A stretch of DNA of 64,000 nucleotides. Source: Pseudomonas sp. 31-12. GTDB lineage: Bacteria; Pseudomonadota; Gammaproteobacteria; Pseudomonadales; Pseudomonadaceae. Shown one piece after another: positions 24,796-44,147 of the stretch (its first letter is position 1; each line of letters begins with the position of its first letter). The translations under genes were made by a program, and so were the position numbers. The DNA lies in NCBI RefSeq assembly GCF_003151075.1, contig NZ_CP029482.1, positions 372,001 through 436,000 of the forward strand, read 5' to 3'. The notes beneath the pieces are model-generated. The model had not been told where the DNA came from, made no database searches, and saw nothing but the letters and a program-made list of their open reading frames with translations.

Positions 24796-25179
24796 CTAAA
24801 CCTTGGCCTGAGCCTGCTGAATCTGCAACGCCTCCCAATGATCCATCGCCCGCTCAACCAGCAACTGCACACCATCGGCCATACGGCTGAGCGCCAGGGC
24901 GACCGAGCGCCGCGTCCCGTCCACATCGTCCGCGAGATCGGCCGCAATGGCGCTGATGGACAGCAGGTCTTCGGAGGCATTGGCCAGCAGGGCTTCGGTG
25001 TCGATGTCGGGGGAAACGGTGAAGAGATGGCCTTTGCGGCGTTTGGTTGGTTTTCCATCAGCCGGGGGGAAGTAGTGGGCGAAGGCGCGGTCAGCGGCTT
25101 CCTTGAGTTTTTCGGCTTCGAGGGAATCGTCGGAATCGGTGCCAGGGTTACCTGGCGGATTCGGAGTAATCTTGTGCAT
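24796..25179 (-). CDS. DUF6124-family protein (function unknown)
   Basis: A 127-residue Pseudomonas-type protein beginning MHKITPNPPGNPG, which I recognise as a DUF6124/DUF3077-like start. It has a disordered, charged N-terminal half (to about residue 60) and a helical C-terminal half (SEDLLSISAIAADLADDVDGTRRSVALALSRMADGVQLLVERAM). No signal or membrane segment. ATG 25179 is chosen because TTTAGGA lies 9 bases upstream. The frame continues upstream through the leader, but without a ribosome site. The long structured leader suggests translational control. No function can be assigned. Confidence 0.8.
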   Translation of the reverse strand: MHKITPNPPGNPGTDSDDSLEAEKLKEAADRAFAHYFPPADGKPTKRRKGHLFTVSPDIDTEALLANASEDLLSISAIAADLADDVDGTRRSVALALSRMADGVQLLVERAMDHWEALQIQQAQAKV

Positions 25180-25425
25180 ATATAAAAATCCTAAACAGTA
25201 AGTGAGAGCCGTCACCGTTCGCTTGCACGCGAATGGGGTGGCGGCCGAGCGCAGGTGTGCAAGACCGGGACTGTTTAGGACACCCAGCAGATCCGAGGAT
25301 CTCCTGCGCGCAGCCGCCATTAAGCAATGAGACATGGCAATTGCGACCCAAACAGTTTCGTCGGACTTGCACGTCCGTGTCACCGTTTATTCAGTGACAA
25401 ACCCAGACTAGACCTGGGTTCAGGC
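25180..25425 (-). ncRNA. Structured 5' leader of the DUF6124 gene, candidate RNA switch
   Basis: Elements in order on the transcribed (minus) strand. First, a hairpin with 7-bp arms AACCCAG/CTGGGTT (25400-25420). Then a hairpin GTCACtgaataaacgGTGAC, 6 bp if extended by one pair (25378-25399). Next CGGAC-GTGCAA-GTCCG (25362-25377), then ACTGTTTGGG (25347-25356). A 15-nt long-range stem (25304-25318 with 25240-25254, 13 of 15 matched) encloses AGATCCTCGGATCT (25289-25302), TCCTAAACAGT (25270-25280) and CTTGCAC. Then TTCGC-GTGCAA-GCGAA (25218-25233), and ACTGTTTAGGA (25189-25199), which carries the ribosome site. TCCTAAACAGT can mask the ribosome site (11 perfect pairs) or pair with upstream ACTGTTTGGG. 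Inference from base pairing only. Confidence 0.6.
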
Positions 25426-25505
25426 CGGAACAAGTTCACCAACACCACTACAACTTGAAGGAAATCTCCGACGGAGTTACCAGACGTTGGTGTTTTCGCA
25501 GAAGG

Positions 25506-26264
25506 TCAGGATTTGGACGACAAATCCGCCATCCCCTTGAGCAATTCGATCGGCAGCGGAAAGACAATCGTCGCTGTCTTGTCCCCGGCAATCGAACTCA
25601 ACGTCTGCATGTACCGCAACTGCATCGCCCCCGGCTGACGCCCCAACATCTCGGCCGCTTGCATCAGTTTTTCCGAAGCCTGCAATTCACCTTCGGCGTG
25701 AATCACCTTGGCCCGGCGTTCCCGTTCGGCTTCGGCCTGTTTGGCGATGGCGCGGACCATCGATTCGTTGAGGTCCACGTGCTTGATCTCGACGTTCGCG
25801 ACCTTGATGCCCCAGGCATCGGTCTGGGCGTCGAGCACTTGCTGGATGTCGATGTTCAGCCGTTCCCGTTCAGCCAGCAGTTCATCGAGTTCATGTTTAC
25901 CGAGCACCGCCCGCAGCGTGGTCTGAGCCAATTGGCTGGTGGCCATGAGGAAGTCTTCGACCTGGATGATGGCTTTCTGTGGGTCGAGCACGCGGAAATA
26001 CAGCACCGCGTTGACCTTGACCGAAACGTTGTCGCGAGTGATGACGTCTTGTGCCGGCACGTCGAGCACCACGGTGCGCAGGTCGACGCGAACCATTTGC
26101 TGGACCACCGGAATCAGCAGGATCAGGCCAGGCCCCTTGACCTGCCAGAAGCGCCCGAGCTGGAACACCACCCCGCGCTCGTATTCGCGCAGGATGCGGA
26201 AAGTCGAACCCGCCAGCGCGATCAGCAGTAACAGTAGCGCGGCAAAACCCAGTTGCAGGCCCAT
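25506..26264 (-). CDS. Slipin/stomatin-like SPFH-domain membrane protein
   Basis: A 252-residue SPFH protein: one N-terminal membrane helix (residues 4-24), then the stomatin fold ([60 protein letters not shown]) and a helical, charged tail ([29 protein letters not shown]). Such proteins form membrane microdomain scaffolds and usually pair with an NfeD protein. The NfeD gene lies 2 bp upstream in the same operon. Confidence 0.92.
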
Positions 26265-43962: not shown

Positions 43963-44147
43963 GCTCGGCAGACGGGAATGCAACAAGCGGAAAGGGCACG
44001 AGAGCGCTGTCCCTTTCTGCGCTTCAAACGGAATTTTCTCTGTGGCCGGGAAAGCTGTGGCAGTCGATCATCGCATGCTGCCGTAGTTGCCTCCCCGCCG
44101 CATTTTCCTTGAACCACGCCGCCCGATGAGCGGTGAATGAGGACTTT

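Follow-up and report, generated by a model that had tools for sequence, protein, structure and literature searches.

Background

C4 is a classic phage antisense RNA; its usual target in phages P1 and P7 is a phage anti-repressor, and this target type is not part of the Rfam model. In P1 and P7, c4 is a separate 77-nt antisense RNA that acts in trans, binding the ant mRNA around its ribosome-binding site and blocking translation (PMC12197685, in part). In Salmonella, the short upstream RNA IsrK (Gifsy-1, RF01394) relieves a silent leader in trans, acting on its own silent read-through transcript, and anrP translation rose more than 100-fold in a wild-type fusion (PMC4825925, in part). The parts of that paper used here also describe an ~80-nt processed RNA directly downstream of IsrK and alternative cis structures demonstrated with compensatory mutants, and the term "C4 RNA" is absent from its main text. 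Phage P4 CI RNA with seqA and seqC, which we liken to the present locus by its description in part of PMC4825925, is an antisense RNA with partners upstream and downstream in its own transcript, but it acts on transcription termination. In Acinetobacter baumannii, 21 C4-like sRNAs with variable a' loops are abundant as processed species, and new bacterial targets have been suggested for them (PMC5320573, in part). They resemble the RNAs described here as a chromosomal family with constant stems and a variable a' loop; however, the parts of PMC5320573 used here name no targets and describe no cassettes of an RNA followed by its target. C4 antisense RNA and c4-a1b1 were both listed by Weinberg et al. 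2010 (PMC2864571, in part), and isrK and C4 stand side by side in a table on Xylella (PMC12189769, in part).

Our literature searches, which covered mainly open-access main texts, recognised no report of C4 cassettes before DUF6124 genes or of insulated C4 families in Pseudomonas. C4 as a kind is known; as far as these searches reach, the amplified, insulated family with DUF6124 targets described below is a new form of it.

A C4 antisense RNA in the leader of a DUF6124 gene

We analysed a stretch of 64,000 nucleotides from Pseudomonas sp. 31-12 (hereafter the window), in which the leader of a DUF6124 gene matched the C4 antisense RNA family (RF01695) over its full length at 61.1 bits, against a cut-off of 45. 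When 4227 Rfam families were compared with positions 25100-25500, C4 was the sole match at E up to 1. A sequence-only reading of this leader had recognised no known family and had itself named an existing Rfam family as a ground for giving up its proposal; because RF01695 matches, that ground is present. In the model alignment, the leader has three stems; a' lies in a loop, b' is single-stranded, and both are complementary to a target at the ribosome-binding site (Table 1). The target encodes a DUF6124 protein and is not of the usual anti-repressor type. The window leader is a member of the C4 antisense RNA family. It shares with C4 of P1 and P7 the P1/P2/P3 fold, the a' loop, the b' segment, the pairing of a' and b' with a two-part target at the ribosome-binding site and the transcript order of C4 before target; it differs in having DUF6124 as its target and ~50 copies with distinct codes in one chromosome, and action in trans and processing are putative here.

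Table 1. Elements of the DUF6124 leader in the window and the basis on which each was placed
Feature	Position	Strand	Basis
DUF6124 gene, 127 aa, ATG start	24796..25179	-	PF19619, E 1.6e-26; ORF
a2 = ACTGTTTAGGA, contains Shine-Dalgarno sequence	25189..25199	-	sequence; -16.8 kcal/mol with a'
Small hairpin carrying b2 = GTGCAAG (25222-25228)	25218..25233	-	sequence; b2 -10.7 kcal/mol with b'
C4 antisense RNA, stems P1, P2, P3	25234..25324	-	RF01695, 61.1 bits, model positions 1-87
b' = CTTGCAC, between P3 and P1 3' strand	25257..25263	-	sequence and model alignment
a' = TCCTAAACAGT, P3 loop	25270..25280	-	sequence and model alignment
a1 = ACTGTTTGGG, a' partner	25347..25356	-	sequence; -18.8 kcal/mol with a'
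b1 = GTGCAAG, b' partner	25366..25372	-	sequence; -11.8 kcal/mol with b'
Upstream partner, two a1b1-like hairpins, b1 in second loop	25362..25399	-	fold, RF03163-like layout
Promoter-like pair: TTGTTC (25428-25433), 17 nt, TAGTCT (25405-25410)	25405..25433	-	by eye
19-nt block GGAGATTTCCTTCAAGTTG, constant upstream of leader	25451..25469	-	identical in 8/8 aligned leaders

The three complementary segments marked in the sequence-only reading, which correspond to a2, a' and a1, were found at their places on the minus strand. In the leader (25180-25425), the longest perfect complement between segments at least 50 nt apart is 11 nt, a length reached by none of 500 dinucleotide-preserving shuffles, three of which reached 10 nt. 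The collinear extension of the upstream pairing was confirmed in the sequence: GTGCAAGTCCG (25362-25372) pairs with CGGTCTTGCAC (25257-25267) at 10 of 11 positions, and CGGTCTTGCAC is made up of part of the P3 3' strand and the b' segment. Two further proposals of that reading are supported, namely that one helix covers the ribosome-binding site and that the upstream near-copy is a competing partner. The b2 partner of b' had been overlooked. Because b' also pairs perfectly with b2, just 3' of C4, a two-part partner lies on either side of C4 (b1 and a1 upstream, b2 and a2 downstream), and C4 would be able to cover both b2 and the ribosome-binding site, as in P1 and P7. With its order 5'-a'-b'-3', C4 pairs with either set in the correct order.

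The C4 fold had a z score of -4.89, none of 200 shuffles being equally good, and the fold of 25347-25400 (-18.7 kcal/mol) one of -3.13 (2 of 200 shuffles). The b2 hairpin (25200-25236; z -0.55, 45 of 200 shuffles) is not above chance when taken alone, which counts against a C4 cassette, and so does the ribosome-binding region, predicted to be 35% unpaired even without C4 (mean of 52 loci of the genome, 39%). The single-sequence fold agrees with the RF01695 model in P1, P2 and the outer part of P3 and pairs part of a' inside P3.

The part of the leader upstream of C4 has the layout of c4-a1b1 (RF03163), that is, two hairpins, the second of which carries b1 in its loop, followed by a1, complementary to the downstream C4, as in the RF03163 alignment of another locus of the genome (L004). 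However, the RF03163 model missed the window's copy at E 1 and at E 10, a result that speaks against the cassette. L004 was matched by the isrK, a1b1 and C4 models; because of these three matches and the Xylella table, the IsrK and C4 systems look like one architecture, a link that we draw ourselves. The window resembles IsrK in its upstream RNA complementary to a downstream element and in a putatively silent leader with relief by the upstream RNA, but Rfam found no isrK match in the leader and a scan of 25150-25520 found no terminator-like site; the leader was therefore not placed in the IsrK family.

The promoter-like pair implies a start near 25398, and its TAGTCT is constant across the 8 aligned leaders; a sigma-70 consensus scan of 25150-25520 found no promoter, which counts against the cassette. 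The block GGAGATTTCCTTCAAGTTG, identical in the window's own leader (L081) and in L082, L083, L084, L086, L089, L094 and L095, is possibly a binding site. A sequence similar to it also precedes L049 and L050. Elsewhere in the window, at 44041-44102 on the plus strand, lies a gabT RNA motif (RF01738, 70.4 bits), a described Pseudomonas element.

Census of C4 cassettes in the genome

We searched the genome (6.73 Mb, one contig) for C4 at a threshold of E 0.001 and obtained 55 matches, 52 of them above the cut-off and 3 below. There are 41 DUF6124 and 6 DUF3077 matches, with one place (2565514) matched by both Pfam models. In 40 of the 55 cases, a DUF6124 or DUF3077 domain encoded on the C4 strand starts 87-299 nt downstream of C4, and C4 stands before 40 of the 46 distinct domains; at the six others (L056-L061), searches with Rfam and with our own model found no C4, which weighs against the cassette. 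A PrrF sRNA match lies near one of these six (L059), whose gene matches both DUF6124 and DUF3077. RF03163 gave 49 matches, 18 above its cut-off, and 48 of the 49 are located 26-65 nt upstream of a C4. A terminator-like site precedes C4 in 12 of 52 loci, compared with 2.5 expected from simple shuffles, although in at least two of these loci (L003, L015) the site found is the b1 hairpin. Four pairs of cassettes 1-4 kb apart (L023/L046, L024/L030, L027/L028, L038/L044) look like local duplications.

Other genes were also found behind C4. The protein of L005 is a Bro-N protein, like phage anti-repressors, and by eye the proteins of L034 and L054 resemble it. None of five small proteins tested (L010, L014, L017, L042, L049) was above a Pfam cut-off. 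Three DUF3077 loci (L002, L004, L045) have a leader ORF of 28-38 aa ahead of the DUF3077 gene, its start codon lying at the C4 target, an arrangement reminiscent of orf45-anrP coupling in the IsrK locus. An N-terminal motif, M-x-K-x-TPNPP (or PDPP), is common to DUF6124 proteins, the Bro-N-like protein of L034 and other small proteins, with further carriers behind C4 in L049, L192, L193, L200 and L206; judging from these sequences, it is one start module placed before different domains.

Profile comparisons bearing on a superfamily of DUF6124, DUF3077 and the small proteins were weak (A3-A4, probability 6.6%, E 0.0055; A3-A5, 0.3%; A4-A5, 0.2%). The window DUF6124 had no match among phage and plasmid records at E 0.01, and the DUF3077 protein of L001 had none among phage records; the one match to a solved structure, at E 0.81, is not meaningful. 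Anti-phage defence was considered and rejected, three proteins having no PADLOC match. With regard to type I toxin-antitoxin systems, the window DUF6124 lacks a strongly hydrophobic segment (19-residue means up to 1.08), and a mean of 1.6 was reached by 3 of 46 proteins of at least 60 aa.

Pairing codes within the genome

The pairing analysis covered 52 of the 55 loci; L053 was left out for want of a usable start, and L052 and L055 because neither has a recognisable gene. Each a' loop and each b' segment was scored against the target regions of all 52 loci, using loops only, with segment limits that were fixed after a first, looser pairing test. In the looser test, which included the P3 stem, the own target ranked first for 18 of 52 C4s by a' and for 9 of 52 by b' (permutation z 16.9 and 11.5). 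The start codons of L002, L004, L010, L021, L045, L049 and L050 were set by hand; that of L021 is probably wrong, and L021 was counted as a miss.

In the loop-only test, the mean joint pairing score was 36.3 for own and 22.7 for foreign targets, and the best of 10,000 permutations averaged 25.2. Of the 52 C4s, 43 paired best with their own target (42 of them untied), and 50 had it among the top three. Two observations disagree with a C4 cassette: the own target was not first for 9 of the 52, and a' of L017, L021, L023 and L031 makes poor pairings within the region that was searched. The own upstream partner was first for 37 of 52, in agreement with its role as a competing partner, and among the top three for 48. 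Nearest-neighbour energies averaged -21.4 kcal/mol for own and -11.7 kcal/mol for foreign pairs, with the own target first in 38 of 52. Two of 2652 foreign pairs (L004 with L045, L012 with L037) reached the median own score, and the a' score against foreign targets (11.0) was about equal to that against shuffled own targets (10.7). All 52 a' loops are different, and b2 loops recur, TTGGTAG seven times. The codes are mutually insulated by sequence, and most C4s fit their own gene best.

Close paralogues with different codes

We compared the 31 DUF6124 loci of the genome whose proteins have at least 100 aa, among which 40 pairs share at least 85% protein identity. In none of these close pairs does the mean cross-pairing score reach 16; it averages 10.8, against 19.7 for own pairs, and paralogues with 97-98% identical proteins carry unrelated codes. 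For example, L027 and L028, 981 bp apart, are identical at 79 of 81 upstream bases, 37 of 40 bases of the first half of C4 and 347 of 363 bases of the gene, but the a' loop agrees at just 8 of 15 bases and the region around a2 at 8 of 27. Over the 40 pairs, identity was 0.86 in the gene, 0.74-0.75 in outer C4, 0.51 in the a' loop, 0.46 in a2 and 0.40 in a1. The remaining bases between C4 and the start codon have an identity of 0.44, a value unfavourable to the cassette, and because of it a2 is not special by its divergence alone; what is special is the surviving pairing. Gene conversion of the coding part could be an alternative cause of proteins more alike than their leaders.

Distribution in Pseudomonas and other genomes

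Thirty DUF6124 loci of the genus were fetched, including the window's own. C4 was above the cut-off in 26 of the 30 (25 of 29 without the window), and neither Rfam nor our own model found it in L092, L107, L108 and L110. The code is the same as the window's or nearly so in L084, L086, L089, L094 and L095, and at other loci it has changed on both sides together, for example to TCCGTCTG/CAGACGGA in L090 and TTTCCGAGT/ACTCGGAAA in L105. Both sides of the pairing vary together within the genome, at 52 loci, and across species, as the sequence-only reading would have it. The window's chromosomal site lies behind nfeD and a band-7 gene; at this site, the window's code recurs in L084 and L086, but L082 and L083 have a different code, whose pairing extends to the start codon. 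The a' partners of L082, L083 and L109, near or over the start codon, were detected only with a wider search region. Weak a' pairs are also present (L091, L093).

Among the best 80 of 526 loci from named Pseudomonas genomes, C4 stands 45-56 nt before the start codon in 71, in keeping with the expectation that the element would be widespread before DUF6124 and DUF3077 genes. In this set of the best 80, the own target was first for 46 of 71 loci (z 24.0) and for 40 of 53 distinct loops (z 23.1). C4 was found in 110 of 119 sampled Pseudomonas genomes, our own included, and DUF6124 in 95 of 119, with up to 43 matches in one genome. The C4 counts come from the best 33 candidates scored per genome and are at least 33 for 17 genomes, our own (55) among them; among the matches listed (at most 33 per genome), C4 and DUF6124 copy numbers had a Spearman correlation of 0.88. 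In nine genomes (G009, G024, G025, G056, G071, G074, G082, G098, G099), at least 15 C4s occur with at most 5 DUF6124 matches, so C4 serves other genes too. In G009, three C4 loci (L191-L193) stand before other small proteins.

In a class sample, 19 of 275 other genomes contained C4, with 1-10 matches each among the best 15 candidates scored per genome. Thirty-five further C4 loci were read, 19 from this sample and 16 from Pseudomonas genomes. Apart from L071, the best a' partner starts 28-39 nt after C4 in all of them (34 of 35), though weakly paired in L198 and L199. By eye, the genes behind these loci include anti-repressor-like ones (L066, L070, L079) and many short ORFs. An ORF of ~52-57 aa (NPSA...ADSSLSVRLARYNAAMA) recurs directly behind C4 in L194, L195, L201-L203, L205 and L191, a position taken elsewhere by leader ORFs such as Icd or orf45.

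Proposed mechanism and alternative explanations

We consider it very likely that Pseudomonas has multiplied a phage-type C4 antisense-RNA cassette before DUF6124-like genes and that the leader is one of the copies, which are mutually insulated. A single transcript would carry, in this order, b1 and a1, the C4 RNA with a' and b', b2 and a2 at the ribosome-binding site, and last the gene. Whether released by cleavage or acting in cis, C4 would pair b' with b2 and a' with a2 and hide the Shine-Dalgarno sequence, and translation would stop; by analogy with c4 on ant in P1 and P7, C4 should repress DUF6124. The upstream b1 and a1 would compete for the same two segments of C4 and relieve this repression, with the short IsrK of Salmonella as precedent. 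We infer that the window cassette is likewise expressed and its RNA processed. The a' sequence, and to a lesser degree b', is a private code, and code and partners have changed together in ~50 cassettes of this genome, so that most C4s fit their own gene best. The off/on switch of the sequence-only reading was a fair sketch of this logic and resembles IsrK, although its middle element is probably itself an antisense RNA.

That earlier model was purely cis-acting: C4 would never be free, and the leader would flip between a'-a2 and a'-a1 within one molecule. All the elements do lie within ~200 nt of one transcript, the own pairing is the strongest, no terminator-like site precedes the window's C4 to release a short upstream RNA, and the alternative cis structures of IsrK are backed by compensatory mutants (PMC4825925, in part). 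We nevertheless regard such a switch as unlikely. Insulation between paralogues is unneeded by a cis element and therefore suggests a diffusible C4; moreover, the C4 fold is that of an RNA acting in trans in P1 and P7 (PMC12197685, in part), and the C4-like RNAs of A. baumannii accumulate as processed species (PMC5320573, in part).

It is far less probable that the cassettes are relics, that is, decaying copies of a phage-derived C4 that no longer function and owe their pairing to inheritance only, because decay would break the pairing faster than it would change both sides together, and all 52 a' loops differ and yet the own pairing is kept, between species too. Signs of decay do exist: L052 and L055 have no recognisable gene, L053 has no usable start, the DUF6124 match at 2802474 (L033) has an internal stop, and three of the 55 C4s are below the cut-off. 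A riboswitch or RNA thermosensor using the two helices, suggested in the sequence-only reading by mutually exclusive helices around the ribosome-binding site, is scarcely credible and was rejected, since C4 is the only Rfam match in the leader, no riboswitch family appearing at E up to 1 in 25100-25500, and the pairing code itself is what varies between loci.

Implications

Read more widely, and more tentatively, the cassettes may be ~50 naturally evolved, mutually insulated RNA switches on one scaffold in Pseudomonas chromosomes. After duplication, a1, a' and a2 would shift together to a new code, so that near-identical proteins would be controlled copy by copy, either as a host system choosing among paralogues or as addiction-like cassettes whose antisense RNAs avoid cross-reaction and so keep them separate; we put this reading at somewhat below an even chance. 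If it is true, a phage anti-repressor switch would have been turned into a host system of paralogue choice or into a large set of addiction-like cassettes. Independently of this reading, dozens of cassettes in a single genome show their targets, codes and insulation directly in the sequence, which makes it possible to test how RNA-RNA specificity evolves once genes have duplicated. The cassettes also offer a naturally occurring collection of candidate orthogonal antisense pairs, as well as a handle on DUF6124 and DUF3077, which are domains of unknown function.
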